A DNA stretch of 64,000 bases. It comes from Polytrichum commune. Taxonomy: Eukaryota; Streptophyta; Polytrichopsida; Polytrichales; Polytrichaceae. Below are positions 6,095 to 63,571 of this stretch, in pieces. Positions within the stretch are counted from its first letter, which is position 1. Each line of letters opens with the position of its first letter. The translations under genes and the position numbers were made by a program. Location: the NCBI GenBank assembly GCA_950295325.1, contig OX485805.1, positions 15,177,501-15,241,500 of the forward strand, read 5' to 3'. A model generated the notes under the pieces. It did not search any database. It was not told where the DNA came from and saw only the letters and a program-made list of their open reading frames with translations.

Positions 6095-6539
6095 CCCAAA
6101 TGAAGTTTAAGTGAGAACAATTTCTTAATTGAACCAGAAAGGTAATGATGAATTGGGCCCGAATTGTACACCAAAAGACAGGGAAAAAAATCAAGAGGTG
6201 GCAAGACAGAGGCTCTAAGACTTGGGAGTTACTTTTTGCACTTTACATTTTGTTTTGTTGCTAGGAAATACCCTCGTATGCGGTTGTGACAAATACACCC
6301 TTAAGCTACATTCCGATCCAAAGTCCATTGTTTAGTCCTAAGGGTTCTTTAGGAATTATGAAAGAAAATCAGAGTCTAAGGCTATAGGTGCATTAATATG
6401 AGGCCTTGTTGCAAGAGTAATCAAAGCAATTGTGTGAGAAGGGTGAATCACTAATTACATGCCAATCAACCGTAGTATAGCACATTTTGGACTTGGCCGT
6501 AACTTTGAAGGACAAGCTGGATCAGCAAGTGGTGTTAGA

Positions 6540-9310: not shown

Positions 9311-9319
9311 GTGAGGGGC

Positions 9320-11740
9320 TATGTCGTATGAATTTTTTGTTTTTTGTAGCCTAAATGAGGTTTAAGTGAGATCAATTCCTTATTTGAACTAGAAAGGATG
9401 AATCTATCTAGTACGAATAGGCTATTATTTTGAGATAGGAGGAAGTAGGTATTGTGAAGACTATGGCATGATTTCAATGGGCAAAAAATTGTGATAACTA
9501 CCTAGTGGGGTGAAGAAGATATGTAGGCTAGACTTTTTTGTAGGCAGAGGGGCCGGATAGATTTTTCTTGTTTTTGTTGAACCTCTCCTGAAATTGTGAT
9601 TTCTTGAGTAAACTTCTCTTGAATATCAAGGTTATATGAATGCATATGTGTATGATTTACATATGTTAATTCAATTATCAATTATTTGACGTTATTAATT
9701 TATCTCCAGGGGGAATGTACCGGGGTTGTGAGGTACTATCTATTTTTAGCAAAATTATTTGAATGTGAGTGGATTTGCAAATAAATCAAGAGAGATTCAT
9801 GGGTTTTAATTGTACGCATTAATTGGAAGTTGTTTTGTACTTTGCCAGTCTTCTTATTTTGTTGCAATAAATGGTTAATTTAACGGGCAAGACTACCGTT
9901 TGAAGTTGTATCGAACTGGACTGTGGAATATGCTCTCTCAAACTTTGATTTGTGAGAAACAATTTTATTGTTGGCCGAGTATTTGAATAAGTCATCCTCA
10001 CAATTTACTAAGTATGAAATTACGTGTGGTTAAAACTATTGAGATTTAGGCCATAGAATTGCAAATTAATGTATCTCAAATTAATTACCTAAATGCAAAA
10101 GTGTGTTTGCATATGTAGGGGGTTGAATATTCCAGAAGGGGTTGTACTGGTCGCAAAATTGAAAGTTTATGAGCCTACAATGAATTAAAAAAAACACAAC
10201 TGATTCATTTAAAATCTCAAAAAGATTGCTAGAAATCTCGATTCAGTCCATGGTCTCAGAGATTGCAGTTCACGTAAAATGTTAGTGTTTAATTGAAGAC
10301 CATAATTTGAAGGAGGCAAGATTGTGTGATTAGTTATTTTGTATGAAATGGCTGATTGATTAAATGAGCAATTTCCGCACGCTAATTTGAGAAGATGGGT
10401 TTTTACAAACTAGGGTGCGTGAGAATTAGTCTTGATTGATTCCCAATACCGGAGATATTTTAATATCTCAAAGTACTTAGAAAATATGAGAGGAGTGATT
10501 CCTCTGCATGTGGATTATGCTCAATATTATAGTTGAATTGAATGCTGATTTGGAATTATTTATATGTTACAAACTTGTTTGATTGAGCGACATACTTAAT
10601 AGGCTATAGATCACCCATTCACGCACTTTGCGTATTTTCTGAACTTTCTCGAAAGCTAATTGCACCAGCAAATAAGACATCATGAATGTAATTAAATTCT
10701 TTAAATCAATTTGAGAGCATAATATGGTGTTGTTGTAAGATGTGTGAATGAAGGTGAGCCTTGGTATTTGATACCAAAATATAATTAAATTGAAGTTTGT
10801 CAAGACTATAAACTTCATGGCATGAAGCATATTTCTTTATTTTTTTAACCTTAAATAGAAGGCGAAGAGACATGAAACCTAACCATTGGCTGCGACTAGT
10901 TCATGTGAAGTCGATGGAGCGAAAGGTTGTGGAGACCCGAAGTCTTTGGGCATTGCTGGAGACAATAATTTAACCTTTGGTAACGTAAAGGAATTTTCCA
11001 GCAAGACATGCCGGGATGACAACCTAGAAGTATATTACTGAACGCACTAGGCAATTGGTTTGATTATATCATGACTGAAGGAAATCTCTTAATGTATTAA
11101 GATCAATTTGATGAACTTACAAAATGGACTTCACCTTTAATAAGATAAATGTATGAACGAAATGCTGTTCAATTAACCTTGGTGTGATATGGTTGATTAT
11201 TGTAATTTATGAAAATAACAGTTATTTTGGCCAAGACCAGGTAAGAGACTATTGTGAGACGGCATAATTAAGATTGAATTTAATAAAATAATATTGATAA
11301 TCTTGAAAAATGACTCTACTACATTTTCAAGTTATATTAAATAGAATCAATGAATGAAAAACTATTGACTACACCAAAGTATCCTTGGCTTCGATAAAGA
11401 CACCAAAATAGGTTATTTATGCAAGATTATTGACTATAACTATGCCTATGCTTGCGCACCGCACTTGGTTCGATTAAAATGAACTCATTGCTAGATTATT
11501 GCATGAGAATTTAGAGTGATATGAATGATTATCACAATAGCATATACTGATTTGGAGAGTTTTTTAAAAAACATTATTATTTATCCATGACCCAATTGTC
11601 AATTCTAACCCGAATTAAAGTGAAATGGCTATGTGTTTTCTTTAATAAAACTTACATGAGACACCTATATGATATACAATTCACCTTTTAAATCTTTCAT
11701 GAATGTTTCCATGGATTTGTTTGTAACCTGAAACTAAATT
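9320..11740 (+). repeat. Long LTR-like repeat block, copy B
   Basis: A stretch of about 2.4 kb without a gene, homologous along much of its length to 13.7-16.1 kb. Shared landmarks, in order: a GAGAGATTCATG block (about 9790), a TTGTTGCAATAAATGGTTAAT block (about 9860), GACTACACCAAAGT (about 11370), GCACCGCACTTGGTTCGATT (about 11460) and a block around CATGGATTTGTTTGTAACCTGAAACT (about 11710) ending in TACA. It directly follows copy 1 of the unknown gene, and copy C directly follows copy 2. This fits an LTR after the internal region of an element. Divergence from copy C is substantial, so it is old. Confidence 0.55.
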
Positions 11741-45822: not shown

Positions 45823-46027
45823 CTATTGGAAAAGTTCTACTCTTATATCAAGTTGAAAGCCATCTACACAGTGACTGTGAATTTTAATAATACTCTCCCT
45901 CCCTTCTATGTTCTTGGGTAGGCAAGCGTCAGAGAGGCTATCGTCAAGACGGCTTAGGTTTATGAGGATATCGTTGATGAAACTCATGTATTTTTTCTGA
46001 CGCATTGGCGAGATTGTCGGCTGATTC

Positions 46028-46303
46028 TCATGTTCGTTCATTAATATCATAGCCGCTCCAATGCACAAAATACTCTAATTTACCCCATCTTCGCCGTGAA
46101 TCCAGTATCTTATCCACCTCGTATTCCTCGTGGTTCTCGATTTCGATACTAGGTGGCGGATTTTGCACTCTTCCTGGAAAAGATGACTCTCGATAAGGTT
46201 CCAATAAAGAGACATAAAAAACTGGATGTCCCTTCATAGCGGCCGGTAATTCCAGACGGTAAGCCACGGGATTGATTTGCTTTTGGACGACAAGTGATCC
46301 CAA
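46028..46303 (-). pseudogene. Chromovirus integrase C-terminus with chromodomain
   Basis: Encodes KQINPVAYRLELPAAMKGHP (the GPY/F-like C-terminal integrase region), VFYVSLLEPYRES, then EEYEVDKILDSRRRWGKLEY and FVHWSGYDINERT. The (E)YEV+KIL..R...G+.EY.V.W.GYD..ERTWEP pattern is a chromodomain, which reads histone marks to direct integration. The frame stops right after ERT, where a tryptophan is normally found, so the last strand is cut off. Confidence 0.85.
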
Positions 46304-46306
46304 TCT

Positions 46307-47467
46307 TCAGTAGTCTAACTTATCGCACGGTCGCTTCGTCTTGATATTTCGTCGGAGAAGCCACACTTTATCTCCAATCTTCAAAGCAGATGCCTCCTTC
46401 CGAAGTTTATCTGCAGATGCCTTGTAAGCCTCTTGGGCGGATTGTAGTTGAAGTTTTAACGTCGTCTGAAGCTCGGATAGTTGTTCCATAAATTCTTCTG
46501 CTGCCGGATTGCCATTCGTTGACGAGCTCAAAAAGTCGAGCTTCGGGTGATATCCATAGTTGGAGAAAAATGGCGTGCTTTGAGTTGAAGCATGGAGAGT
46601 GTTGTTGTAAGAAAACTCGGCAAGTGGTAGATATGTAGTCCAATCGTCTTGCTGGTAGTTGATGCTACATCGTAAATATTGCTCTAAGACTTAATTCACC
46701 CGCTCCGATTGTCCTTCAGTTTGAGGATGAAAAGCCGAAGAAATGATGAAAAGCCGATGAAAAGCCTAATGTCCACTTTTAGTTTTTCAAAGAAGAATCT
46801 CCAAAACTTGGATACAAACTGAGTTCCTCGATCTAAAACAATATCATCTGGTAGGCCATGATAACGATACACTTTATCAAGAAAGAGTCTTGCTGTGTCT
46901 TCGCTTGATGCCGTCTTCTTACAAGGGACAAAATGCGCCATCTTTGTAAGTCGATCGACCACAACAAAAATGCTGTCAAATAATGAAGTCCATAGAAACC
47001 GAAGACCACGGACGGCGTGGAACATATAATGGTTGCAGAAGCCCATATGGACGATGCCGAGGGGTCTTGGATCTTGAGCAAATGTTACAAGAGAGGACAA
47101 ACTCTTTGACATCCTTCTACATTTGGGGCTACCAAAAATCTCGGGAAATAAGCTCCAAGGTCTTATTGAACCCAAAATATCCCGCAGCTGGAAAATCATG
47201 ACGAGATTGAAGAACCCGAAGTCCCGCAGGTCCTTGTGGAATGTACAACCGCTCCTCAAAATACAGAAGATCACCCTCTACCTTGAACTTGATATTATTG
47301 CTACGTTGCTTGATGTCACGAGCTATAGAATCTTCAATGGTCGCAGCACGTACTTGGTTGAGGAAATCGGCGTCGATAGGTACGACAACAGTGAAAATCC
47401 TAAATTGCTCTGGTTTCAATAATGTCGTACACTGCTGATCAAATGCTACTTCTCCAGCCTTTGGCAC
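46307..47467 (-). pseudogene. Chromovirus integrase, frameshifted
   Basis: Several overlapping frames hold a complete but broken integrase. The HHCC zinc-binding region begins in 47129-47467 (RHDFPAAGYFGFNKTLELIS). The catalytic core is at 46696-47274, with VVVDRLTKMAHFVPC carrying the first Asp and DIVLDRGTQFVSKFWRFF the second. The DDE glutamate block (HPQTEGQSERVN, then a stop and VLEQYLR) lies in another frame near 46675-46740. The region around 46740-46775 has a small AAAAGCCGATG tandem duplication that breaks the frame. The downstream piece (46307-46643) is the linker to the chromodomain part. Confidence 0.8.
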
Positions 47468-48786
47468 AAAATACCATCTCCTCGATAACGCATCAGACAG
47501 TCATTGTTGGTTTCCAGGCCTGTAGTTGATAACAAAATCAAATCGAGCAGTGACATATTCCATCGAGCTTGACAACGATTCAAAACTCGTGCCGACATGA
47601 AGTATTCCAGATTCTTGTGATCCGTGTATACAATTACTAGGTGTGTAGTGCCTTCGAGAAAGTGACGCCACTCTTGGAAGGAATCCACTATAGCAAGGAG
47701 TTCCTTATCGTAGATCTCATAGTTGATTTCAGCAGTAGAGAACTTGCGAGAATAGAAAGCAATCGGGTGGAGCTTCCCGTCAACGCCAATTTGCGAAAGC
47801 ACGGCTCCTAAAGCAAAGTCTGAAGCATCGGTCTCCAAATAGAAAGCCTTTGCAAAGTTGGGATGTACCAAGATTGGAGCCGTAGTGAATGCCGTCTTAA
47901 GATCTTGAAATGCTCGTTCGGCTTTAGGTCCCCATTCCAACTTCTTCTTGCATGTTAACCGGGTGAGTGGAGCAGCGACTTGAGAATATTTCTTGATAAA
48001 GATCCGATAAAAGTTAGCAAAACCAAGAAAACATTGTACATCTCTAACCGTCTTCGGAACTTTCCAAGACACGATTGCTTCTACTTTCTTGGGGTCCATC
48101 TTCAAGCCTTCAGTAGTCGCAACAAATTCCAAAAACTCCATCTCTGTTTGGTGAAACAAACACTTCTCCAACTTGGCGTAGAGTTCTCGTTCGCGTAATT
48201 TTTTAAGAATCAACCGTACGTGTTTCTCATGTTCTTCTTCATTCTTGGAAAATACCAGAATATCATCTAGGTAGATGACAACAAAATCGTCGAGGTACTC
48301 CCGAAAGATGTCATTCATCATATGTTGAAAGACCGCTGGAGCATTGGTAAGACCAAAAGGCATCACGTTATATTCAAAATGGCCATACCTTGTGCGGAAA
48401 GCCGTCTTCCATTCGTCTCCTTCTTTGATTCGTACGAGGTTGTAGGCTTCCCTTAAATCAATCTTTGTAAAGATCTTTGCACGTCCAAGTTGGTCTAGGA
48501 GGCCAGAGATCAAAGGTAAGGGATAGCGGGTTTTCTTGGTCACCTTGTTGAGTCCTCGGTAGTCCACGCACATCCGTACTGAACCGTCCTTTTTCTTGAC
48601 AAATAAGATTGGTGCTCTAGTTGGCGATTTTGAATGACAAATGAAATTCTTGGCTAGGTTCTCGTCAATGTACTTTCGCAGTTCTGCCAACTCTGTCTGT
48701 GATAAGTTGTAAATTGGGCCAAAAGGTGGTTGTGCTCTGTCTTCCAACTCTATGGCGCAATCGTATGGTCGGTGCTCTGGCAGCAT
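47446..48786 (-). pseudogene. Chromovirus reverse transcriptase and RNase H
   Basis: An intact stretch of 446 codons from ATG 48786, embedded in a broken polyprotein. RT motifs seen: KKKDGSVRMCVDYRGLNKVT, FTKIDLREAYNLVRIKEGDE, TAFRTRYGHFEYNVMPFGLT and the catalytic VIYLDDILVFSK (YLDD). RNase H follows: FYLETDASDFALGAVLSQ, NYEIYDKELLAIV and VIVYTDHKNLEYFMS. Sense continues upstream past an in-frame stop near 48815 (DVFQKKNAD). At the C-terminus a frameshift near 47500 displaces the expected INYRPG...DALSRR block into another frame. Confidence 0.92.
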
Positions 48787-48955
48787 GTCGGCGTTCTTCT
48801 TTTGAAATACGTCTTAAAAATCCTTGTACTGCCTTGGTATGCTTGTTGTTGAGGTCGTCTCTCCTTTAGTCGGAGTTGCGTAAAAGACAAACGGTATTCC
48901 CTCCTTAGACAATTTTATGAACGCTCTTGCTCCAATAAATAAGGGTTTTTTTAAT

Positions 48956-49350
48956 TTATGGTCTCCTAGCGAGGTTAGTTTTTTCAGGGAATGTGATTGT
49001 CCGTAACCTCCAATCTATGGTTGGATTATGATCTACTAACCAGGAAAGACCAAGAATAACAGGGCTTGATGGAGTTCTAATGATATTAAAGACAACATAA
49101 TTATTATGGTCCTTAAACGTCACTTCTATAGGTTCTGATTCATGGGTCACATTGCCAGATAATAAAGGTCGTCCATCTATCACCTCTACGTGAATAGGCT
49201 TAGACTTTTGTACTAGACGAATCTTGTGGCGTTTAGCAAATTCTTCATCTAAAAAACAAGTAGATGCCCTCGAATCTAATAAAGCTAAAGTTTTTTGTTT
49301 CTAAAGACCGAGAGACAGAGAAATTGTAAAACAACGAGTAGGTTGGGCAG
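48956..49350 (-). pseudogene. Chromovirus aspartic protease
   Basis: Encodes QKTLALLDSRASTCFLDEEF, RHKIRLVQKSKPIHVEVIDG, TFKDHNNYVVFNIIRTPSSP and VILGLSWLVDHNPTIDWRLR. The ILG.SWL..HNP.IDW block is the typical C-terminal end of Gypsy retropepsins. The active site reads DSRAS in place of D(S/T)GAS, so the catalytic loop has lost its conserved glycine. Stops separate it from gag and RT. Confidence 0.8.
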
Positions 49351-49404
49351 AAAAATAGGAACCCGATTTTTATCGTGACATTGGGTCGTCCAACCGCACG
49401 GTTC

Positions 49405-50406
49405 CTACTGTGGCTGGGCATCGTCGTTTTCCGGGATCATCGCGCTTCTAGTCTTAACAGTGCGTCGGTTCTGCTTCTTGGGGCAGTTTATAGCCTTGTG
49501 ACCTTCTCCTCCGCAATATAAACATAATCCTTCTTCCATTCGTCGTTTCTTTTCTTCTGGAGTAAGAGTTCTGACACGTGCCGTTTCAATTTGCATGTCT
49601 TCTGCTTCCAAATGTGAATCCAAGCTCCTTGCTGTCATAGTTGCATTGTAACGAGTCGCTTGGTGTCTTGGACGTTGGTCTTGGCGACGTTGGAATAGAC
49701 GGTTGTCACACTTTACAGCTTGGCTAATGGCTTCGTTGAGTGTTTGCGGATTTGGAAGAGTTAACAGCAAGTCCTTCACATCATCCCTCAAACCCCAATA
49801 AAACTGACTCACCAACGCCTCTTCACCCCAATTGATGTCACTCGCCAATTGTCTGAAATCTGATGCATAGACTAATGCAGAGCGTGCCCCTTGTCGTAGT
49901 GACCGAATTTTGGTTGTAGCCCATCGGACCTTGTCATGTTCGCCAAATGCTTCTGTAAATGCCCCCAAGAATGTCTTAAAGTTGCTCAAAATTAACGATT
50001 GTTTCTCAAACAAGGGAGCAAACCATGACAGAGCTTGCCCTGTAAGCAATGTTCCAACAAGCCCAACACGCGCCTCTTCCGTTGGATAGCGTTCGGGCTG
50101 TAAAACTGTTATTAATCTAATTTGATTTAAGAAACCTCGAAACTTGGAACGCGTTCCATCGAACTTGTCAGGATGGCTAACTCGAGGTTCCTTCCATTGT
50201 AGCATTATTTGGTTTTGTTGACTCGAAGGTAAAGATACTTCATCTAGTGCAAAATTTTGGGTTTGATATATTCCAGAAGGCGCTATGACAGATGCTCCTT
50301 CGTTGTAAAGCCCTGCCATGATTCCTTCAATCTCTGCAGTCCTATGTGACAACGAAGCAAGAACATTGATGATGCCATCTAATTTGGAATCTAAACTTTC
50401 AGCCAT
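49405..50406 (-). CDS. Chromovirus gag, 333 residues
   Basis: ATG at 50406 (MAESLDSKLDGIINVLASLS) to TGA at 49405. The open frame begins earlier, but only with a non-ATG codon. The capsid-like retrotransposon-gag region runs from KFRGFLNQIRLITVLQPERY to FYWGLRDDVKDLLLTLPNPQ. One CCHC zinc knuckle (CLYCGGEGHKAINC) lies near residue 300. It would form the virus-like particle and bind element RNA. This is the only domain of the chromovirus still uninterrupted. Confidence 0.85.
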   Translation of the reverse strand: MAESLDSKLDGIINVLASLSHRTAEIEGIMAGLYNEGASVIAPSGIYQTQNFALDEVSLPSSQQNQIMLQWKEPRVSHPDKFDGTRSKFRGFLNQIRLITVLQPERYPTEEARVGLVGTLLTGQALSWFAPLFEKQSLILSNFKTFLGAFTEAFGEHDKVRWATTKIRSLRQGARSALVYASDFRQLASDINWGEEALVSQFYWGLRDDVKDLLLTLPNPQTLNEAISQAVKCDNRLFQRRQDQRPRHQATRYNATMTARSLDSHLEAEDMQIETARVRTLTPEEKKRRMEEGLCLYCGGEGHKAINCPKKQNRRTVKTRSAMIPENDDAQPQ

Positions 50407-50666
50407 CCTAAAGTCTTGATCTCCGACTATCCCACGAAAGGAGAACAACGGTTTGATAAGAGAACAATATTGGTTTAGAGGAAGGTACTCCGCAACCTCT
50501 AAAACGCCTTAAGACTCTGAGAAGAGGGGTAATCCACGCTCGTCAAGAGGAATAAGACTCCAATACTGAGGTGGAAGAAGTATCAGTTAGAGGAGGGTAG
50601 TCCGCAACCTCTAAAGCACTAGTACACTTTCAAAAGAGGGGTAATCCGTTCTCTAAGAAATGACTA

Positions 50667-50680
50667 GCTCTGATACCGGT
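50667..50680 (-). other. Primer binding site, tRNA-Met type
   Basis: Read on the minus strand the LTR ends ...GCATTCTCA and is followed by CCGGTATCAGAGCT. GGTATCAGAGC is complementary to the 3' end of initiator tRNA-Met, the usual primer of plant Ty3 and Copia elements. Confidence 0.85.
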
Positions 50681-50682
50681 GA

Positions 50683-51053
50683 GAATGCAGTCTCGACAAA
50701 TTGTCAGGGACACAAGAATGAGCAATGAGAGATTAAGTACTAGAAAACAAAATCACTAGGAAACTTGGATTAATAAGAAGAGTACACGATCAACACGCAG
50801 AGAGGTGGATTAGAGTCCTAAGGAGTGCGTTGTCGAGACTGAAGAATTCTTCAGCATCGACTCCTATATATACTTCTAGAGTCAACTCGTAAGCTTCTAC
50901 AGAAGGTTCTACCAACTTCCATTAGAGGTTTCTAGAAGGTTCTAGAAGCTTGTTACTAGAATGTTCTAGAATGTTTTAGAAAGTTCTAGAGAGTTCATTC
51001 TAGAGTGTTCTAGAAACTTGTCCTTAGAAGGTTCCAAAACTATGTCCCTAACA
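50683..51053 (-). mobile_element. 5' LTR of the chromovirus
   Basis: Read on the minus strand it starts TGTTAGGGACATAG at 51053 and ends GACTGCATTCTCA just before the primer site, so the ends are TG...CA. Length is about 371 bp. It holds a heat-shock-element array (about 51037-50901), a TATATATA box (50872-50865) and a downstream CT-rich leader. The array, TATA box and expected start lie in the correct order for minus-strand transcription of the element. Confidence 0.8.
50901..51037 (-). promoter_or_regulatory. Heat-shock-element array in the LTR
   Basis: From about 50955 to 51000 the sequence divides into consecutive 5-bp units AGAAT GTTCT AGAAT GTTTT AGAAA GTTCT AGAGA GTTCA, that is, alternating nGAAn and nTTCn. 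More units flank it (AGAAG GTTCT AGAAG CTTGT near 50935; AGAGT GTTCT AGAAA CTTGT and AGAAG GTTCC at 51002-51035). Arrays of three or more such units bind trimeric heat-shock factors. The TATA box is 30-170 bp downstream in the direction of transcription. Heat induction of the element is inferred by analogy with the Copia element ONSEN. Confidence 0.7.
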
Positions 51054-51484
51054 CATTGTTGGTCTTGTGGACATGCGGGTCACGCTAAGAATGATTGTCC
51101 TTTGAAGCAAAGACAAGCCCAGACCGTCGATAATCCGAAGTGGAAATCATTTGTTTCCGCAAAGGATTCGATGAAGGGATGGGTAAGCATTTACCCAAGC
51201 AGTTGACGTGTTCCCATTGTGGGTGGAATAATCACACGGTGGATAACTGCTTCGCTCTCCATCCAGAAAAACATCATTCTTTTGATCGGGAGAAGGCGTT
51301 GGAAGGAGAGATTGAAGCATTGGAGGAGAGGTTCAAAAGTTTGGCGTTATCTGGCCAAATCTTGGACTCACCGTCCTCCTCCACCGCTAAGGCTAGTTCT
51401 CCCACTCCGGATTATTATATGTTCGGAGCCGCGGGAGAAATGGTGAGTTCCACAACATTGATACGGGCTCAATCCGTGTCATGA
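51054..51484 (+). pseudogene. Gag zinc-knuckle region of the methyltransferase element
   Basis: Two CX2CX4HX4C knuckles: CWSCGHAGHAKNDC (from about 51060) and CSHCGWNNHTVDNC (from about 51210). They lie in different frames, so an indel lies between about 51110 and 51190. After the second knuckle comes a charged, coiled-coil-like stretch (FDREKALEGEIEALEERFKS) and a stop at 51482. In retroelements such tandem knuckles bind genomic RNA. The region starts right at the chromovirus LTR border, so its N-terminal capsid part lies elsewhere, possibly at 43.4-44.3 kb. Confidence 0.75.
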
Positions 51485-51710
51485 GCCACGCCCTCGACCA
51501 CAAAGAAGTCTGTGAAGAGCTTACGAGCTCGGGGCAATGGTCCCGCGGATCAGATTGGCCAGGCTTGTCTGCCATTATCTTTTGGATTGGCGGATGCGGT
51601 CCAATCTGTAAGTGGTCGTCATTTGAGCTTGGAGGCTTCGAATCCAACGACTGGCATGGTGCACACTTTGGCATCCAAAGTGTTGCATACGCCTTTGTTC
51701 ACGGCGATGG

Positions 51711-52684
51711 TGTCGCGCACCTCTCCATGAGGAGTGGCCGAAACACCATGGGCACAAGGGGGACCCCGGAGTGACACCCGGGACTTGTGGCGCCGTTGGT
51801 GAGAGGGCCCAAGTGATCCTAGTGTGGGTGAGGGCCCCGGGCGTTGGGAACGCCTCCCACCCACGGAGACTAGGAGGCACAAGGGTAAGGCCATGAGCTA
51901 TGCGTAGCTCATGGCGTGGTGATTCTAGAATGCTCAAGAACACCTCAATCGGAGGTGTGAGCTAGGAGTTATGGCCATTTGAGTGGGGCGCTGTCCCGGG
52001 ACAGCGCCCTGGTGCAGCAGTGCCTGGGAGTGACTCCCGGGACTGCCAAGGTTCAAAGAGGCATAACGTCCTCATAACTTGCCCAAATAGGGCAAGTGAG
52101 GAGTCCATCGGCATCTACGTGAAGCGTAGATGAAGATGGAGTGGTTGGTTGCTGGAATCAGACATCATACAAGGAAGTTATGATGGTCTGAAGCTGCTAG
52201 AGGCTTCTTAGCCCAGCGGCTAAGGGAGAATGTCCACTTGGCCCCAACTCTTGGTGGAGAGACAAGAGGTTGGTTGACGGTGGGGTAGGGGCCCCGTGTA
52301 AAGTCCTAGAGGCTTATATGGGTGAGGTGGTGTGGCCTCACCCACCCGAGGCCGAACGGCAAGGCCTCCATGGGCATTGGCCCATTGTGAGGCCATAGTT
52401 GCCTAGTATGGTTCGGGTTGTTGTAGTGTTGCTCCGGCAATGCGATGATCAACATGGGATTGGACTTCCCATGGATGGAAGTCCACATCTAGGAATGGGT
52501 TACCGATTAAGGGGTGAGTCCCGAAAGCAAAATAGGAGGGTTGGTTCCCTCCTATGAACTATAAGGTCCGGGGTAGGAGGAGCTAATCATTAGCATGGCG
52601 GAATGCGAATGGTTAGCACTCGTAACCTTTGCTAGAATTGAAAATTGGCAAGATTGTCAAGGGGGGCTAGCAAGGGTTGCGACA
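51711..52684 (+). mobile_element. Solo LTR, 974 bp, 5-bp target duplication GATGG
   Basis: Starts TGTCGCGCACCTC and ends AAGGGTTGCGACA, with terminal inverted repeats TGTCGC/GCGACA. GATGG lies at 51706-51710 and again at 52685-52689. It is nearly identical to 54885-55857 and, inverted, to 7218-8189. It splits the methyltransferase element between its gag tail and the protease region, and the coding sense resumes after it (EWSSPEFQPAKVFHLAGRIL). Confidence 0.92.
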
Positions 52685-52685
52685 G

Positions 52686-53470
52686 ATGGAGTGGTCGTCG
52701 CCAGAATTCCAACCTGCTAAGGTTTTCCACTTAGCGGGTAGGATTTTGGAAGGGAAGGCATCCTCACCTTCTCTGACCGTGGCCCAAGCCACCACGGACA
52801 TCCTTGCTTTTGAAGACCCCGATGAAGTGGCCATACGGCGAGCGAGGCTTGCCGCATAGACCATTGCGTCTTTTGACACACACACCTCAGATGACAGGGG
52901 GCCGACCACGTCTTATGACTCACCACAATCCGCGGGAGCAGCTTATCTGTCTGATGTAGCTACTAGACTTGCTCGCGAGTGCCGCGGCATTTGACCCGGT
53001 GTCGTGTGTATGGTGAATGATACCGATATTTTGGTGGTCAGTCGGACTAGGGGCAATGCCACTCAGGTTGCTCCATGTTGTGTGATGATGGATTCAAGGG
53101 CACAGCCAGTTATGATTGGCAAGAAGCTTGCCCAAGTGTTGGGATTGGCTGCCGAGGACTTGGCTCCTTGTCCATTCACCATTGTCACATCCGTTGGTCA
53201 TGTGGAGCGGGCCACAAGTTATACTCGGGAGCCATTACAGCTTAGCTTCCGAGTGAAGCCTGGAGATTCACCCACACCTCTTTTTCTTAGGTGTGCGGTG
53301 AGGAATGCGACCAACTATGACATTTTAGTTGCTCAGCAAGCACTTTATCCTCTCGGTTTTGATTTAGACAACTGGACTGAGGAGGCTTGGATCCAACCAG
53401 GTTGGTAACTTGGTCGTCTGGAGATGGCCACATGGAACTTATTCTTGTAGCATTCGCAGCGGCCGCAACC
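52686..53470 (+). pseudogene. Retropepsin-like domain of the methyltransferase element
   Basis: After the solo LTR the frame reads PEFQPAKVFHLAGRILEGKA, a stop, ...AAYLSDVATRLARECRGI, another stop, then the core VAPCCVMMDSRAQPVMIGKK followed by LAQVLGL, LQLSFRVKPGD and NYDILVAQQALYPLGFDLDN. The ...DSxAQPVMIGKKLA... loop and the following NYDILVG/AQ..LYPLG block are retropepsin-like. The expected DSGA reads DSRA, as in the neighbouring chromovirus. The C-terminal part (NWTEEAWIQPGW) leads straight into the methyltransferase after a stop at about 53408. Confidence 0.65.
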
Positions 53471-53496
53471 ATCGCACGTTTATCCATGGTCTTTAG

Positions 53497-54678
53497 ATGC
53501 AGTGCTATTGTGGATACATTGCTTTAAATTATGGATCCGCATTATTGGAGGAGTCATTGGCATTTATGGGGAGTGTTGAAGACCCACGAGAGATGACATC
53601 TAAGAATGCCTTGATACGCCATCCCAAGGATCATTTACCACCGTGGCGTGATTCCGCCGGCTTATTCGGAAGGTGTGAGGACATTGTCCTCTCTCTCGAT
53701 TCTACCACACCATTTATACCGGATACTCCATCCACGTTGGCACGTCCTATTTTGTGGCGCCCTTCAAACACTGTAACTACTTTGGTGGAATTGTTTGGGG
53801 GCATCGGCACAGGATTAGCAGCCGTATTGGAGGCTCGCCTCACGGTCAAACAATATGTCTATGTGGACAACTCTCTAGTGTCCACCCGTGTGGCTCGTCA
53901 CCATCTTCACGGGTTGATGGTATTGTACCCACAACAGTTACACCCAATTGCCATTCGTGGGTATTTTTCACGTTTCCCTCGTGATGTCACACTCATTAGT
54001 GAGGCCGACTTACGACACTTGGGCCCGGTGGATATGGTGATTGCGGGATGGCCATGCCAAGGCCATTCACGTGCTGGAGCAGGCCGAGGTTTAGAAGATC
54101 CCACGCCTAGCCTTTTTTGGGACCTCATCCGGCTTATGCAGTGGTGGTTTACCCACCAACCTTCCCCTCCAGCGTATATCTTCAAGAATGTACCTTTGTT
54201 GGGAGACTCTCGGGACAAGGTGTTGGAAGGCGGTCATTATGTCCGTCAATACCTTGGAGATCCCATTTTTGTGGATGCTGCGAGCATTGGTTCTTATACC
54301 TACCGGCCTCGGTGGATTTGGACCAACCTCATACCGTCATCTATTTTAGCTAGAGCATTTTTTGCAGTGCCTCCACCTTTGGATAAGAAGGTGGATGACA
54401 TCTTGGATCCAAACCAGACCTCTTTGCCGGTTGTTCGAGATGATTTATCCCCGTTGGCATTGGTCAACAAAGTGGGGGCACCACGGAGGGCCTTTCCCAC
54501 TTTTATGACGTTTCCACAGTCATTCGCATTCCACGATCGGGGACCGGGTATGGTGTGGGATGCTAACACCAAAATCCACACCGAACCGTTGGCTGACCAA
54601 TGGGAGCGGGCCATCGGATTCCGCACTGGCACCACCGCAGCTCCTGGCCTTTCCGAGGGCCAACAACGCTTCGTGTAG
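53497..54678 (+). CDS. C5-cytosine DNA methyltransferase domain of a retroelement
   Basis: Open frame of 393 codons from ATG 53497. Upstream sense continues past stops, so it was part of a longer polyprotein. Motif I (SAM binding) LVELFGGIGTGLAAVLEA is at residues 96-113. Motif IV GWPCQGHSRAG, with the catalytic Cys, is at 184-194. Motif VI reads IFKNVP at 228-233 where IFENVP is usual. Motif VIII SYTYRPRWIWTN is at 266-277, motif IX/X-like WERAIGF at 369-375 and QQRFV at the end. These are in the standard order of a DNMT, and the RPRW.WTN form recalls DNMT3/DRM-type enzymes. The target-recognition stretch lies between residues 278 and 360. Glu-to-Lys in motif VI should cripple catalysis. The last GQAMDL-type block lies in another frame after 54660. 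Function in the element (maintaining or placing host-like methylation on its own DNA) is inferred. Confidence 0.85.
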   Translation: MQCYCGYIALNYGSALLEESLAFMGSVEDPREMTSKNALIRHPKDHLPPWRDSAGLFGRCEDIVLSLDSTTPFIPDTPSTLARPILWRPSNTVTTLVELFGGIGTGLAAVLEARLTVKQYVYVDNSLVSTRVARHHLHGLMVLYPQQLHPIAIRGYFSRFPRDVTLISEADLRHLGPVDMVIAGWPCQGHSRAGAGRGLEDPTPSLFWDLIRLMQWWFTHQPSPPAYIFKNVPLLGDSRDKVLEGGHYVRQYLGDPIFVDAASIGSYTYRPRWIWTNLIPSSILARAFFAVPPPLDKKVDDILDPNQTSLPVVRDDLSPLALVNKVGAPRRAFPTFMTFPQSFAFHDRGPGMVWDANTKIHTEPLADQWERAIGFRTGTTAAPGLSEGQQRFV

Positions 54679-54884
54679 GCCAAGCCATGGATCTTTATAC
54701 CATGGTGTGGACTATTGGTTTATGCCTTGCATTGCAACGGCATCATGGTGACCAGTTGTTCTCTCTGGGGGCAGAGGATTCTGGTCAGGGGGCACATCGG
54801 TCCACATCCATGGAGGAAGAAATTGAGGTCATGGTTGGAGAAGCCAAACGAATTTGTCGATTCAAGCAGCAGGTGATGAAGGAG
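54660..54884 (+). pseudogene. C-terminal region after the methyltransferase, part 1
   Basis: In the frame of 54600-55070 the sequence reads VGQAMDLYTMVWTIGLCLAL, QRHHGDQLFSLGAEDSGQGA and MEEEIEVMVGEAKRICRFKQ, up to the second solo LTR. VGQAMDL is probably methyltransferase motif X, displaced by a one-base frameshift at about 54678. The rest is an acidic, helical segment of unknown role. The frame continues beyond the LTR at 55863. Confidence 0.55.
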
Positions 54885-55857
54885 TGTCGCGCACCTCTCC
54901 ATGAGGAGTGGCCGAAACACCATGGGCACAAGGGGGACCCCGGAGTGACACCCGGGACTTGTGGCGCCGTTGGTGAGAGGGCCCAAGTGATCCTAGTGTG
55001 GGTGAGGGCCCCGGGCGTTGGGAACGCCTCCCACCCACGGAGACTAGGAGGCACAAGGGTAAGGCCATGAGCTATGCGTAGCTCATGGCGTGGTGATTCT
55101 AGAATGCTCAAGAACACCTCAATCGGAGGTGTGAGCTAGGAGTTATGGCCATTTGAGTGGGGTGCTGTCCCGGGACAGCGCCCTGCTACAGCAGTGCCTG
55201 GGAGTGATTCCCGGGACTGCCAAGGTTCAAACAGGCATAACTTCCTCAGCACTTGCCCGAATGGGGCAAGCGAGGAGTCCATCGGCATCTACGTGAAGCG
55301 TAGATGAAGATGGAGTGGTTGGTTGCTGGAATCAGACATCATACAAGGAAGTTATGATGGTCTGAAGCTGCTGGGGGCTTCTAGGCCCAGCGGCTAAGGG
55401 AAAATGTCCACTTGGCCCCAACTCTTGGTAGAGAGACAAGAGGTTGGTTGACGGTGGGGTAGGGGCCCCGCGTAGAGTCCTAGAGGCTTATATGGGTGAG
55501 GTGGTGTGGCCTCACCCACCCGAGGCCGAACGGCACGGCCTCCATGGGCATTGGCCCATTGTGAGGCCATAGTTGCCTAGTATGGTTCGGGTTGTTGTAG
55601 TGTTGCTCCGGCAACGCGATGATCAACATAGGATTGGACTTCCATGGATGGAAGTCCACATTGGGGAAATGGGTTACCGACTAAGGGGTGAGTCCCGAAA
55701 GCAAAGTAGGAGGGTTGGTTCCCTCCTATGAACTATTGGTCCGGGGTAAGAGGAGCTATCCATTAGCATGGCGGAATGCGAAGGGTTAGCGACTCGTAAC
55801 CTTTGCTAGAATTGAAAATTGGCAAGATTATTAAGGGACCTAGCAAGGGTTGCGACA
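54885..55857 (+). mobile_element. Solo LTR, 973 bp, 5-bp target duplication AGGAG
   Basis: Starts TGTCGCGCACCTC, ends AAGGGTTGCGACA. AGGAG is at 54880-54884 and 55858-55862. It is almost identical to 51711-52684. Because each of these two direct copies has its own perfect duplication (GATGG and AGGAG), they are independent insertions and not the LTR pair of one element. The coding sense of the host element (VMK before, then LRAQRVYTALASSP after) is cut by it. Confidence 0.92.
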
Positions 55858-55862
55858 AGGAG

Positions 55863-56204
55863 CTTCGAGCTCAACGGGTTTATACTGCTTTGGCTTCTTC
55901 ACCTCTGGTGGTGGCTTCATCATCACATATTGGTGGTGATGAAGAGGGGATGGACTCTATTGCTAGCACGGAGGGTGGGGGCATGGTTAATGCCTCCTCC
56001 TCTCATTAGCAGTTAGAGTTTGTGCCAGCACCAGGTGGTTTTCTCCTAGTGGAGAGGGAGACCACAGAGTTTGATGATTGGCCATTGGAATTGGGCCTTC
56101 ATCTCACTGGTGCTGAGGCACAGAAAGTACGAGCATTTATTCGCTGGTGTGTCGAGGTGTGTTGTTTATGTGTGACTTTGCTATGTTTTAGTGTTGTTTG
56201 TTAG
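55863..56204 (+). pseudogene. C-terminal region after the methyltransferase, part 2
   Basis: Continues the acidic region with LRAQRVYTALASSPLVVASS, HIGGDEEGMDSIASTEGGG, a TAG, and then a second segment (56022-56204) with PAPGGFLLVERETTEFDDWP and LELGLHLTGAEAQKVRAFIR. No known domain is recognised. Coding sense ends before the hAT-type element at 56433. Confidence 0.45.
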
Positions 56205-56432
56205 TGGTGATTGGTACTTGAGCTGTAGTGACACACGATTGCTATTTACACGACAATGCTCTGAATATTTAACATTGTCACATCCTTTTTTAGTATAATA
56301 TTTGAATTAGTGCACTTGGTGAGATATATAATATGTAGTTGGGACATGACACTGCAAACCGATAAGAATCTAAACTGATCCAAATTGATTGTCAAAAGAA
56401 ACAGTGGCTTCTAGGCAAAAGAAGAAGGGTAG

Positions 56433-57431
56433 CAGGGTTGTCTATCGCAACGTCATGACGGTGTCGTGCCGTCATGTCGTGTCGTGTCGTGACGGACCCC
56501 TCCGTCACGACACAATAGGGTCCACGTAGGGTCAACATAGGGGGAACGGACTAGGGTGGGTAAAATACTTACCTTCTTGCCAAGGTGGCGTCCTATGTGG
56601 CAGAAAACGCCGACGTGGTCGTGGATATGCCTAGCGCCAGGTAAATCATTTTGCCATTTTGTTTACCATTTTGTTAAAATCAAAGTAGTAAAAAACGCCT
56701 AAGGAGGGTGTGGGGCGGACGGGGGTGGGGGGGGGAACGGAGCGGACGGGGGGGGGGGGGGGGAAACGGAGCGGACGGAGTCGGGAACGGGGGCGGACGG
56801 GGGGAACGGGAGCGGACCGGGGGGGGGGGAACGGAGCGGACGGAGTCGGGAACGGGGGCGGACGGAGGGGGGGGAAATTTTTTTTAAAAAAAATGGGGCG
56901 GACGGGGGAGCGGACGGAGGGGCGGACGGGGGGGAACGGGGCGCGGACAGGGGGGAACGGGGCGCGGACGGGGGGGAACGGGAGCGGACGGAGGGGGGGG
57001 AATTTTTTTTTTTTAAATGGGGCGGACGGGGAAAGGGGGGGGGGGGGAAAAAAAAAAAAAAACTGGGGCGGACGGGGGAGCGGACGGAGGGGCGGACGGG
57101 GGGGAACGGGGCGCGGACGGGGGGGGGAACGGGGCGTACGGGGTTGGGAACGGAGCGGACGGGGTCGGGAACAGGGGCGGACGGGGGGGGCGGACGGGCT
57201 CTAGTAAATTTTTCCCCACTTTACCTTTACTTTGCTGACATGTCATCACACGTGGACATTGTAAATCCTACGTGTCTGAATTGGGTTAATGTAATTACAC
57301 AAAAAAATCGGTAAAATTCAAGTCCGTCAGGATAAAGACAGCATCCGGCATAATGTCGTGACGGATACGTGTCGTGACGGCACGACATTATGCCGGGATT
57401 ACCCTCCGTCACGACACAATAGACAACCCTG
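56433..57431. mobile_element. hAT-type non-autonomous element with G-rich core, 999 bp, 8-bp target duplication AAGGGTAG
   Basis: Ends are CAGGGTTGTCTAT and (reverse complement of the right end) CAGGGTTGTCTATTGTGTCG, a terminal inverted repeat. AAGGGTAG lies at 56425-56432 and again at 57432-57439, the 8-bp duplication of hAT transposons. The subterminal regions hold perfect hairpins: GTGTCGTGACGG/CCGTCACGACAC (56484-56495, 56502-56513), and a 16-bp arm at 57345-57360 with its complement at 57381-57396. The middle (about 56700-57200) is a minisatellite of GGGGCGGACGG-like units with long G runs. There is no transposase gene. A truncated inverted copy is at 63087-63571. Confidence 0.92.
56700..57200 (+). 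repeat. G-rich minisatellite (GGGGCGGAC-type units)
   Basis: About 500 bp of irregular tandem units built from GGGGCGGACGG, GGGAACGG and GGGGG runs, interrupted by short A-runs and T-runs. Many G-tracts of four or more lie close together, so the G-rich strand could form G-quadruplexes. Apparent reading frames here (glycine/arginine or proline rich) are artefacts of composition. Confidence 0.85.
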
Positions 57432-58012: not shown

Positions 58013-60614
58013 TCAGTTGACCAGGTTTCCAGTTTCCAAATGGCATTCTTGGAGCACAGCAGCAGCATACGCCGTCGTCGTTAGCTCGTTCCCCCACCAA
58101 CTTGTAGGGTCATTGTAACTGTAGAAGGGGCAAACGTCCCACGATCCATCCACATTTTGCAGCCGTGCCAATTGCTGTCGGTCGATGACGTTCTTCACCC
58201 CACACATGTGACAAGCACGCAGTCTCATTGCGAGAGCCAAAGCAGTCCCTGGCAGTCCCACGCGCTTGCCCACTTTCTCCGCCAACAACTTGGCCATGCC
58301 CATGCTCTCAAAGTGCTCCTTGAATTTGTGCGTGAGGCGAGCTAGCTGACACAGAAACGTTTCCGGCAGCAGATAGTACAGACTGCCCCGTAAATAGGCC
58401 TCGCTCTTCAGCACATTGTAGAGAAACTCTTCGCTTTTCTTCACATCTACCACTCGGCCGGCTAAGCAGAACAGGTAGCAGATATTGGCTACAATGACCG
58501 CATCTACCCTTGGCCGCGTCGAGTCAAAGTAAGTCTGGCAGATCATAAGAAGCAGAATTAAATTATACGTATGATGTTGGTTCAACAAAAACAGCATTGT
58601 AATTTTGGTCACTCGAGCATGATACGTACTGATAATTATGGACGGGGCAGATTCAGATTGCTAACAGGTGCTTGATATTACGGGTCTCCAAGACTGCCGT
58701 GATATTAAATTGACATTTAGATTAGCTCTGTTAAATATGTGTGTTGTTGATTACTGGGAGCTACGAATGAGGAGAGATCCGACAGCTAGTTATCGATGAT
58801 CCGGTTGAGTTTGAGAAATGACGGGTTCAGGTTCAAGACTGGAGGCAAATTGACAATCATTATAGAGGAATCTATAGAGCATACTCTAAATTAATAAAGG
58901 AAAACCAAAAGATATCAACATGCAAACGATTGGACTTGGAAACACTTGGATGCTGACCGATGTTACCCAAAATCTCTGATTAGAATTGGGTCATGATGTG
59001 CATAGGTATGAGGCAAGGTAGACTGTTATCCTTATAGACAAGATCAGTCACCCATGCACCTGCCACAAAGATCCATTAAGTTGCAACCAATATCACCATG
59101 GTATTTCATTCCATAATAGGAAGTGGGTAGCTGATAGCATGTTAACATGGACCTTAAATTTTTGACTTGGACGTAGGCCGATCACAGTTTACCACACTTC
59201 TTCTCAAAAGGAAATGCTCTGACGTCTCATGACTGACTCTCTCCCATTTATTTGCTTGCATTGCTTGGGACGATAGTTGCACTGGATCATGGGACAACAG
59301 TGAAATACAACGCTGTGCAGGTGCGTAGCCAACCGATCCTGACATAATTAATTAATGATCAGATCTGCAAAGACTATACAATCCATCATGTCCTCATAAA
59401 CTCAAATTGGAGGTACCTCGGCATGATTCATGAACAGGGAATCCATGAAATTGCATCAAAGAGTTAGTAATGCGTCTGACCTGGAAAATACCATCACCGT
59501 TCTGTGCGTCTACCATTTTGTCCAAGACAACATGGATTATGTCCATGTCCACTTTGGAGAATTTGTGCAAAACAGACAATCCGATGGAGGTGACGTCGAG
59601 GTCGTCGGGGAAGCTTTTATGCGACACAGCATTGGTATTTGGGTCTCTCTGGTTCAGTCGTTCCATGGGAGGGAATAAGTTGAGCGTCCCGGACACAGGC
59701 GCTTGGTGCATGGGAAGGAAGGCCGGGTCCCCCAAAAGCTCCGCAACCAGAAAGTGGTCGAAATGGATCGGCACTCGAAAGCCGTCCGAAGTAAGCGAGG
59801 GGCATTTCTCCACCACAGGTCCTAAACCTCGCAGACTCGACAAGTATCCCGCGGCTGCCGCCCACTTCTCCTCATCGCTTCGAAGATGATACACTACGAG
59901 ATTCACGGCCTCTTTCACGCCTTCTTCATCATGAGAGCGCACGAGAACACCGGTGAACCCTAATGACTCGGCGGCCACCACATTCTGGAGCGTGTCGTCC
60001 ACAAACACCGTTTCCGACGCCTCGCACGCCATCTCGCGCAATGCGTGCTCGAAGAACCCGAAGCTGGTTTTCCGGAGGCCCACGGCGGCCGAGTAGAAGA
60101 TCCGGTCGAACTTTCGAAACACGTCCGGAAACCGTGCGAGGATGTCATCGTGATCCTCCTTCGCGGCGTTCGTCATGCAGAACAGCTTCAGCTTGCCCGT
60201 CGCGTGTAACGCGTTGACAAGCCGCACGAATTCCGTCACCGGCTGCAGGGAAGCTCGGGCACCGTCAAGAATCGCTTGCACTGAGGCTTCGTTGCAATGG
60301 TGATCTCGTAATTGGCTCATCTCGAGGGCCAGCCGGCACCGGGCTTCAGTCCACGAGAGCCTGCCCTCATGGTACTGGAGCCACGCATAGCTTCGAAGCA
60401 TTCGTTTAAACAGAGAGGGTGACAATGTCGAGCCTACCATGTCCAGGTTCGGCACAAGCAGCACCCCGCCGATGTCGAAGCACACATTCTTGAATTGGCC
60501 ATTGCTGCAGCTAAGAAATGGAATGCCAGCAGTAGCAGCACTCGCAAGGCTATCAACTAAATTTGCAGTACTCATCGTTGCATGGGGCATTCCGCAGGGC
60601 TCAGGCACTTCCAT
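58013..60614 (-). CDS. HAD-like hydrolase / class II terpene cyclase fusion (drimane-type synthase-like)
   Basis: Two exons, complement of 59481-60614 and 58013-58534, with a phase-0 GT-AG intron (59480-58535), giving 551 residues. I chose the first ATG (60614); the frame opens slightly earlier without an ATG. Residues 40-250 are HAD-like: VCFDIGGVLLVP (nucleophile Asp47), LFCMTN (Thr148), GLRKTSFGF (Lys182) and VFVDDTLQN (Asp206, Asp207). The second Asp of the usual DxD is Gly. Residues 270-551 are a terpene-cyclase beta-type domain: SFPDDLDVTSIGL carries DxDVTS (Asp338, Asp340), equivalent to the DxDTT acid motif of class II cyclases. QNGDGIFQ and NVDGSWDVCPFYS are QW-like repeats. HAD-cyclase fusions are known as fungal AstC-type drimanyl-diphosphate and bacterial drimenol synthases. 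The likely reaction is protonation-initiated cyclisation of farnesyl diphosphate, with the HAD part acting on the diphosphate. No chloroplast transit peptide is obvious. Confidence 0.82.
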
Positions 60615-60950
60615 CGGCGATGTCAATGGGCTGTCACGGTTGTAATCTGATCAGTCCAGGGCGTCAAGGAATGCTGCTCTGCGAGAATCCTGCTGTCTGG
60701 CAGTGGAGAGTGGCGCTGTTGTTAATTGCAGTCGTTTATCCAGCTTCTTGTAGGTTCATGGATGCGTCCCCCCCACGAACTCTTTGGGAGAGGAATATTC
60801 TGTCAGGGGCAGCCGCCTGTCAGATTTTCTGGACCCGACCGGAAATTGCTGCCCGTCCGCCCGACTTCGAAAAAACTATTGTTCTTGCATTCTTGAAAGT
60901 CACTTATCCACAAATGCCATATTGAGTGCACTTCATTTTCAAGGTCCCAA
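60615..60950 (-). promoter_or_regulatory. 5' flank/leader of the HAD-terpene cyclase gene
   Basis: The 340 bp upstream of the start codon (read on the minus strand) should contain the promoter and leader. The sequence is more GC-rich than the AT-rich DNA beyond 60.95 kb. I do not see a convincing TATA box at the expected distance. Confidence 0.3.
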
Positions 60951-63086: not shown

Positions 63087-63571
63087 CAGGGTTGTCTATT
63101 GTGTCGTGACGGAGGCTAATCTCGGCATAATGTCGTGCCGTCACGACACGTATCCGTCACGACATTATGCCGGATGTTGTCTTTATCCTGACGGACTTGA
63201 ATTTTACCGAATTCTGTGTGTAATTACATTACTCCGTTTCGGACACGTAGGATGTAAGATGTCCACGTGTGATGACACGTCAGCAAAGTAGAGGTAAAGT
63301 GGGGAAAAAATTACTAGCGCCCGTCCGCCCCCGTTCCCTTCCCCGTCCGCCCCCCGTTCCCGTCCCGTCCGCTCCGTTCCCCCCCCCCCCCCCCCCGTCC
63401 GCGTCCGCCCCACACCCTCCTTAGTCATATTTTACTACTTTGATTTTAACATAATGATAAACAGAATGGCAAAATGGTTTACCTAGCGCTAGGCATATCC
63501 ACGTCCACGTCGGCCTTTTCTGCCACATAGGACGCCACCTTGGCAAGAAGGTAAGTATTTTACCCACCCTA
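63087..63571. mobile_element. Second copy of the G-rich hAT-type element, inverted and truncated
   Basis: Starts CAGGGTTGTCTATTGTGTCG, which is the reverse complement of the right end of 56433-57431. The same landmarks follow in reverse order: the GGCATAATGTCGTG hairpin, AATTTTACCGAATT, CACGTGTGATGACA, a C-rich core (about 63318-63420, much shorter than in copy 1), TTTTACTACTTTGATTTTAA, GCGCTAGGCATATCCACG, CTTGGCAAGAAGGTAAGTAT and ACCCACCCTA. After 63571 the match stops abruptly, so the other terminal repeat is missing and no target duplication can be defined. Confidence 0.9.

Follow-up and report, generated by a model that had tools for sequence, protein, structure and literature searches.

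The closest described relative of the element reported here is KnitGypsy-Dnmt3 of the charophyte Klebsormidium nitens, a retroelement with DIRS-like repeats (de Mendoza et al. 2018, PMC5890265). According to the part of that paper available to us, retrotransposon DNA methyltransferases (DNMTs) are capable of de novo CG methylation. A 2025 survey, available as extracts, mentions streptophytes and dinoflagellates (PMC12344493), and the accessible portion of a paper on moss DNMT3 (PMC6453930) does not mention a transposon-encoded DNMT3. As to integration, spumavirus and HIV-1 integrases have been reported, in the excerpts at hand, to cleave the palindromic junction between two long terminal repeats (LTRs) (PMC1180852, PMC1905944). 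Are such methyltransferase-carrying retroelements also present in land plants? We analysed a 64,000-nucleotide stretch of the moss Polytrichum commune (GenBank assembly GCA_950295325.1, contig OX485805.1, positions 15,177,501 to 15,241,500, forward strand; hereafter the window), in which a sequence-only reading, made without database searches, had proposed a retroelement carrying its own C5-cytosine methyltransferase. The analysis bears this out: the element is very probably a Ty3-type (Metaviridae) green-plant retroelement with a DNMT3-class cytosine methyltransferase between protease and reverse transcriptase (RT). The same reading knew of no well-described land-plant case. This holds for the open-licence literature, where no land-plant retroelement with a methyltransferase was found among the matches listed, but not for the protein databases, in which land-plant members are already filed under automatic names.

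The full architecture is seen in longer copies elsewhere in the genome (408 Mb in 64 contigs were searched). Four 10-kb stretches, L031, L032, L033 and L034, were read, and the Pfam domain scan was made on L033 only. In all four, a first open frame of 1,361-1,367 residues includes the methyltransferase; the second frame has 1,048 residues in L031 and L033 and 973 in L034, and is broken in L032. Frame 1 of L033 holds a CCHC gag knuckle, the protease and the methyltransferase, followed by one in-frame stop, and frame 2 holds RT, RNase H, H2C2, the integrase core (rve) and a PHD finger. The sequence-only reading had advised looking for RT and integrase in the same open frame in better copies; both are there, in a second frame after an in-frame UAG. 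The Pfam E values in L033 are 2.3e-11 for the methyltransferase and 1.4e-10 for the PHD finger, while CCHC (E 0.0038) and Asp_protease_2 (E 0.007) stay under the Pfam cut-offs, their assignment being backed by an alignment over family copies and relatives. The nearest solved relative of the RT-RNase H part is Ty3 (3.3e-100), and that of the integrase is prototype foamy virus. The PHD finger in the integrase frame is nearest to those of CHD4, PHF12, LID, ATXR5 and UHRF1, and fingers like these often read histone H3 tails. There is no tyrosine recombinase among the Pfam matches of either L033 frame, where rve and H2C2 are present. The Ty3-like RT, the order RT-RNase H-integrase and the short target duplication are those of Metaviridae. 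Two identical whole LTRs around the insertion were not found: the four long copies examined end as A...B-gc-A-B or A...B, where A and B are the terminal pieces described below.

What kind of enzyme is carried? The window open reading frame (ORF) at 53497-54675 matches Pfam DNA_methylase (E 3.5e-10, 40.2 bits against a cut-off of 22). Its nearest solved sequences are DNMT3A/3B (E 6e-8), and its AlphaFold2 model (mean predicted local distance difference test score, pLDDT, 79.9) finds DNMT3B/3A by Foldseek (E about 1e-15). A profile of 15 relatives searched against the PDB reached DNMT3A at 1e-22, DRM at 3.6e-15, HhaI at 4e-8 and DNMT2 at 7e-7, with no match to DNMT1 at E up to 0.001. The motif order is unrearranged and nearest to the DNMT3 class, whereas that of DRM is rearranged. 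In the window copy, motifs I (FGGIG), IV (PCQ) and a VIII-like motif (RPRWIWTN) follow in order, as the sequence-only reading had it. Motif VI, which it also claimed, reads KNV and not ENV here, so that the catalytic Glu is lost. The window copy of the element is dead, as the sequence-only reading had said. The accompanying suggestion that the family may have active members fits the long open frames elsewhere and one copy in which the two A pieces (A1 and A2) are identical.

The window methyltransferase has at least 106 matches in the genome, two of them pieces of one copy; the number is a lower bound, as only 105 of 630 candidates were scored. Most listed matches show 76-87% identity and many lie in open frames of more than 1,000 residues. 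A Pfam search of the genome with PF00145 gave 123 places, 69 of them absent from this list. Among the additional places are those of a second subfamily, whose frames reach 1,386 residues, a host DRM gene (C2:4703606) and a decayed retroelement relative that is more distant; the last two were the odd-looking places that were read individually. Is the enzyme maintained by selection? For the 30 best-matching loci of the 106 (27-30 copies per segment), the ratio of nonsynonymous to synonymous variants seen in at least three copies is 0.23 in the methyltransferase core, 0.15 in the protease, 0.21 in gag/CCHC, 0.10 in RT, 0.29 in the linker and 0.27 in the region before the core, and it rises to 0.73 in the tail that leads from the methyltransferase to the stop and by this measure is a built-in control for the comparison. 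Rare variants are nearer neutral (core 0.65, RT 0.46, tail 0.80), and the median pairwise ratio of nonsynonymous to synonymous rates (Ka/Ks) is 0.30 for the core and 0.70 for the tail. Judged by these ratios, the methyltransferase is under purifying selection. PCQ is kept in 28 of the 30 loci, its C and Q being invariant in the 30-row alignment, and ENV in 24; KNV replaces ENV in four (L001, L005, L008 and L017), the window included.

The UAG between methyltransferase and RT has a characteristic context. TAG-CAR-TTA is the first in-frame stop, 354 nt after the methyltransferase, in 18 of the 30 best loci. The motif occurs in 36 of 60 loci scanned, a set that counts one copy twice (L021 = L041); three loci have only a different match and 21 have none. 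Nineteen of the 21 come from the Pfam search and were taken as the second subfamily, in which TAG-CAA-TCA stands at the matching place in 9 loci and an earlier stop is found in the other 10. The change is from Leu to Ser, and the CARYYA consensus is kept. UAG-CARYYA is the readthrough context of the tobamovirus type. A literature search did not find a CARYYA readthrough stop codon in a retrotransposon. Among Marchantia protein models, P0108, P0109 and P0118 stop soon after the methyltransferase, and P0112, P0114 and P0122 join it to RT. There is a strong case that most ribosomes would halt at the UAG and a few would read through, giving RT and integrase in smaller amounts. As the methyltransferase lies ahead of this leaky stop, it would, if the stop works, be made with Gag and protease and not with RT.

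How are the ends of the element organised? L031 and L033 read, in order, A (333 bp), internal region, polypurine tract, B (106 bp), gc, A and B, while L032 and L034 read A-internal-B, with the second pair (A2-B2) absent. The 4-bp target duplications are TACA, ACCC, ACTT and GAAT in L031-L034. Eight more copies were tried, and seven gave both ends, with duplications TGTC, CAGC, GGTT, GATG, ACAA, GTGT and TATC; for the eighth, A was not found in the 5' stretch fetched. A 4-bp duplication bounded by the start of A and the end of B was thus seen in 11 of 11 copies read. The pair A-B was also considered as an ordinary LTR and rejected: in 10 of 11 copies what comes directly after the 5' A is ACTTGGCAA and not B, the stretch of the eleventh ending within A. 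With at most one mismatch, B-gc-A occurs at 177 places in the genome (control 2), polypurine tract-B at 177 (control 0) and A-B at 119 (control 0), 50 of these being exact. A same-strand listed methyltransferase lies upstream within 12 kb at 64 of the 115 listed B-N2-A places and downstream at none; the other 51 have no listed methyltransferase within 12 kb. B-gc-A is 3' of the enzyme in all paired cases and therefore marks the 3' end of the element. About 331 bp before 27 of the 50 exact A-B places there is a B-N2-A; of the other 23, four have a listed methyltransferase within 12 kb, and the rest could be solo A-B pieces. The lists are complete for contigs C1 and C2; there, B-gc-A follows at 14 of the 24 exact tract-B places and is missing at 10, among them the junction of L087.

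The two kinds of junction behave differently. The spacer from B to A is 2 nt in all 67 matches, although 0-14 nt were allowed. It reads GC in 48, and 16 of the other 19 carry only a C-to-T or G-to-A change, at a CHG site, as expected if methylated integrated copies decay. The A|B junction, in contrast, holds inserts at seven places (A three times, ACT three times, TGAGGGGGGGCA once), and all seven match either the start of the primer site (A, ACT) or the end of the polypurine tract (TGAGGGGGGGCA). At L087 (C1:21765450-21766100), 12 nt of the polypurine tract are retained at A|B. Further, the 15 nt directly after A1 are perfectly complementary to positions 124-138 of A; of 1,512 start points compared, none outside that stretch reaches 10.

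How could such copies arise? The complementary 15 nt after A resemble self-priming of the Tf1 type. The 5' end of the RNA would probably prime its own reverse transcription at the site adjoining A1, giving linear DNA in which the LTR is B-gc-A; with the polypurine tract before B and the self-primer after A, this DNA would run from the start of B to the end of A. Since genomic copies run from A at the start to B at the end, the linear molecule would need its ends joined and a new opening made between B and A. We lean, with less assurance, to a next step in which the joined ends (A|B) close a circle. Within an LTR of this circle, integrase would then cleave the palindrome CGACA-gc-TGTCACG, drop the gc and insert the DNA with its 4-bp duplication. 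Primer-site and tract remnants are of the kind known from 2-LTR circles, and variable A|B inserts beside a constant B-gc-A spacing fit this route. More tentatively, the enzyme may methylate the complementary DNA (cDNA) or the circle of the element, host-like 5-methylcytosine then protecting it or setting a chromatin state, and the PHD finger of the integrase may steer insertion to matching chromatin. The whole would amount to a normal insertion route through a 2-LTR circle opened at a fixed, element-borne palindromic junction, with the Gag-level methyltransferase acting on the circle, which we offer as a tentative proposal.

Where else does the family occur? Protein searches gave relatives in Marchantia polymorpha, M. 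paleacea, Calypogeia fissa and three Sphagnum species, and among algae in Closterium, Klebsormidium nitens and Monoraphidium neglectum. With relatives in both bryophytes and green algae, the element belongs with KnitGypsy-Dnmt3, now in land plants. One family protein (P0007) is filed under a Candidatus Obscuribacterales metagenome-assembled genome, probably through contamination. Scans of collections of genome contigs and viral contigs with the methyltransferase found no relative. Two domain orders occur among the relatives: protease-methyltransferase-RT-RNase H-integrase, and RT-RNase H-methyltransferase-integrase-PHD. The methyltransferase tree (145 rows, quick method, long-branch warnings) had as outgroups a piece of DNMT3A and the genome's own DRM; no host DNMT3 is named among the best 120 of 148 protein matches, all with E <1e-48. 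Rows of the second order form a single clade (98), which forks of 81-87 place inside the first-order rows, and the window groups (98) with rows from Marchantia, Calypogeia and Sphagnum. In the RT tree (32 rows) the second order is again one clade (95/92), with the Klebsormidium RT as sister. The element and K. nitens methyltransferases share one clade, against two outgroup rows only, and for this reason the tree cannot prove a single capture. Together, the two domain orders and the trees make relocation of one captured enzyme likely, with exchange between elements possible and two separate captures still conceivable.

Might the association be an accident, gag and protease remnants and a host methyltransferase gene having been stacked by separate insertions? 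The window copy is indeed broken by inserts and frameshifts, but the breaks by insertion are two later solo LTRs, each with its own clean target duplication, the whole order is uninterrupted in L033, the enzyme has at least 106 matches in the genome, and the host DRM gene of the same genome lies in separate pieces in rearranged order, unlike the element copies. This explanation, raised by the sequence-only reading itself, can be dismissed almost entirely. The layout A1-internal-B1-A2-B2 is that given for PAT (PMC4157794) and for KnitGypsy-Dnmt3 (PMC5890265) in the available parts of both papers, and it would suit a DIRS/PAT-type element, with tyrosine recombinase and split direct repeats, that had captured a methyltransferase. 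Such an identity is very unlikely here, given the integrase core and H2C2, the lack of a tyrosine recombinase among the L033 Pfam matches, an RT nearest Ty3 and target duplications in every copy read. Is the enzyme needed as an enzyme, or does it persist as a structural component that binds DNA or RNA, its catalysis being dispensable? A place before the leaky stop, hence Gag amounts if the stop works, and the Glu-to-Lys change of motif VI in 4 of 30 loci would agree with a structural role. We consider that role improbable in view of the retention of PCQ and ENV in most loci, the invariant C and Q, and the purifying selection.

The alternative that deserves most attention is that the same element integrates as linear DNA, unusual strand transfers in reverse transcription giving the long form with no circle. 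It could account for the finding of only one circular permutation. From a circle that has two identical B-gc-A sites, copies of the form A-B-gc-A-internal-B would be expected as well; this predicted other permutation is not seen among the listed places, and its absence counts against the circle. Several further points weigh against the interpretation proposed here. Recombination between B copies, in place of a circle, may have produced the short copies L032 and L034; taken alone, the three single-A inserts at the junction carry little weight; the protease match is weak (E 0.007 in L033); and Klebsormidium is placed differently in the RT tree and the methyltransferase tree, the latter a quick one with long-branch warnings. 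UAG readthrough, self-priming, the circle and enzyme activity, as well as what methylation would do for the element, are moreover all predictions made from sequence. On the other side, remnants of primer site or polypurine tract sit exactly at A|B in 7 of 7 inserts, as expected from joined linear ends, and the B-gc-A spacing does not vary. We hold the linear route to be unlikely, if a serious contender, and still lean to insertion through the circle.

In the window, 51054-56255 is one decayed copy of the Ty3-type retroelement, as found by tblastn and blastn against the longer copies L033 and L031 (Table 1). The sequence-only reading had placed it at 51054-56204; the start stands, the end moves to 56255, and two foreign solo LTRs have to be taken out of the span. 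With L033, tblastn tiles 51054-56144 in the order CCHC, CCHC, linker, protease, methyltransferase, tail, stop, RT start, the path being interrupted by several frameshifts. No N-terminal gag match was found in the window by this search, the left end being missing, and blastn against L031 skips from 6306 to 9599, most of RT, RNase H and integrase being deleted. Since the L033 order is tiled and both long repeats belong to another family, as solo LTRs with duplications of their own, gag/protease and methyltransferase belong to one element. The two 975-bp repeats were also considered as the element's own LTRs, and rejected since each is flanked by its own target duplication. Of the two CCHC knuckles claimed earlier, both align with L033; the first lies below the Pfam cut-off (zf-CCHC_6 E 8e-4, zf-CCHC E 0.0093) and the piece with the second has no Pfam match. 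Likewise the claimed retropepsin-like loop aligns with L033, whose own match is sub-cut-off, while the window protease ORF (52995-53405) has no Pfam match and reads DSR where L033 has DSG.

Table 1. Pieces of the decayed element and later insertions in the window
Feature	Position	Strand	Evidence
Gag C-terminus and first CCHC knuckle CWSCGHAGHAKNDC, out of frame with next piece	51054..51179	+	tblastn to L033 ORF1; Pfam
Second CCHC CSHCGWNNHTVDNC and linker	51161..51709	+	tblastn to L033 ORF1; blastn 84% to L033
Solo LTR (TGTCGC...GCGACA) from another family, inserted later and flanked on each side by the target duplication GATGG	51711..52684	.	
Linker and retropepsin-like protease; DSR at about 53091-53099	52686..53414	+	tblastn to L033
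DNMT3-class C5-cytosine methyltransferase, ORF 53497-54675; PCQ at about 54052-54060, KNV at about 54184-54192, TAG at 54676	53411..54675	+	
Frameshifted tail after methyltransferase	54675..54884	+	tblastn
Second solo LTR, also inserted later (95.8% to the first) and flanked by the target duplication AGGAG	54885..55857	.	
Last part of gag-protease-methyltransferase frame	55857..56006	+	tblastn
UAG CAG UUA, stop in readthrough context UAG-CARYYA	56007..56015	+	
Start of RT frame, first 45 residues	56010..56144	+	tblastn
Terminal piece B, TGTCGAGG...CACGACA, 106 bp, 96% to L031	56150..56255	+	blastn

The other-family LTR-like repeat TGTCGC...GCGACA is present a third time in the window, at 7217-8191, and also stands beside or within other methyltransferase copies (L033, L032). 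A minus-strand Ty3 element (gag, RT, RNase H by Pfam) at about 46000-51053 adjoins the remnant; a full second copy of its right-end sequence was not found in the window. Beyond the remnant, 56700-57200 is a long G-rich run of GCGGACGGGGGGGAACGGGG-like repeat units, and 58013-60650 on the minus strand holds a HAD-hydrolase domain (Pfam 3.4e-10) and, after it, a region that by eye resembles the terpene-synthase type, 58013-58660 having no Pfam match. Inverted repeats at 56552-57431 and 63087-63571 (88-93% complementary) enclose both, possibly a gene in a mobile unit.

What do these results mean? Methyltransferase-carrying retroelements are now seen in land plants as a large, selected family with green-algal relatives, so that host silencing in these plants evolved beside elements bringing their own methylating enzyme. 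Two questions become testable, namely what a transposon gains from methylating DNA and how split direct repeats originate. If the circle reading is true, such repeats arise and persist without a tyrosine recombinase, methylation may decide which of two identical junctions is cut, and the family offers a natural case for an idea raised for spumaviruses, that integrase can use the LTR-LTR junction of a circle. The spumavirus and HIV-1 systems, in the excerpts available, share with this element a retroviral-type integrase and a palindrome at an internal LTR-LTR junction (PMC1180852, PMC1905944); the difference is that the junction-like palindrome here is a fixed part of the element, known from sequence alone. 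The PAT/Ngaro split-direct-repeat elements have the same terminal layout A1-B1-A2-B2 (here in L031 and L033) but a tyrosine recombinase, as far as the available text describes them (PMC4157794), in place of the retroviral-type integrase and target duplications found here. SymbioDIRS-Dnmt3 and SymbioLINE-Dnmt of dinoflagellates are likewise retroelements with a cytosine methyltransferase, yet they are of the DIRS and LINE classes and are called independent in the accessible part of PMC5890265. KnitGypsy-Dnmt3 is the nearest of all. By its published description, as available in part and not by its DNA, it has the same Gypsy-type domains, in-frame Dnmt3-class enzyme, DIRS-like repeats and purifying selection (PMC5890265), and the K. 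nitens protein P0158 is a relative by sequence and domain order. That description treats the charophyte case as an acquisition in its own lineage, whereas the trees given here place it in one wide green-plant family. The element described here differs in its land-plant host, in the UAG before RT, and in the 4-bp duplications, constant B-gc-A and variable A|B shown for it; the land-plant spread, the leaky stop, the target duplications and the junction evidence are new additions to what was known of such elements.

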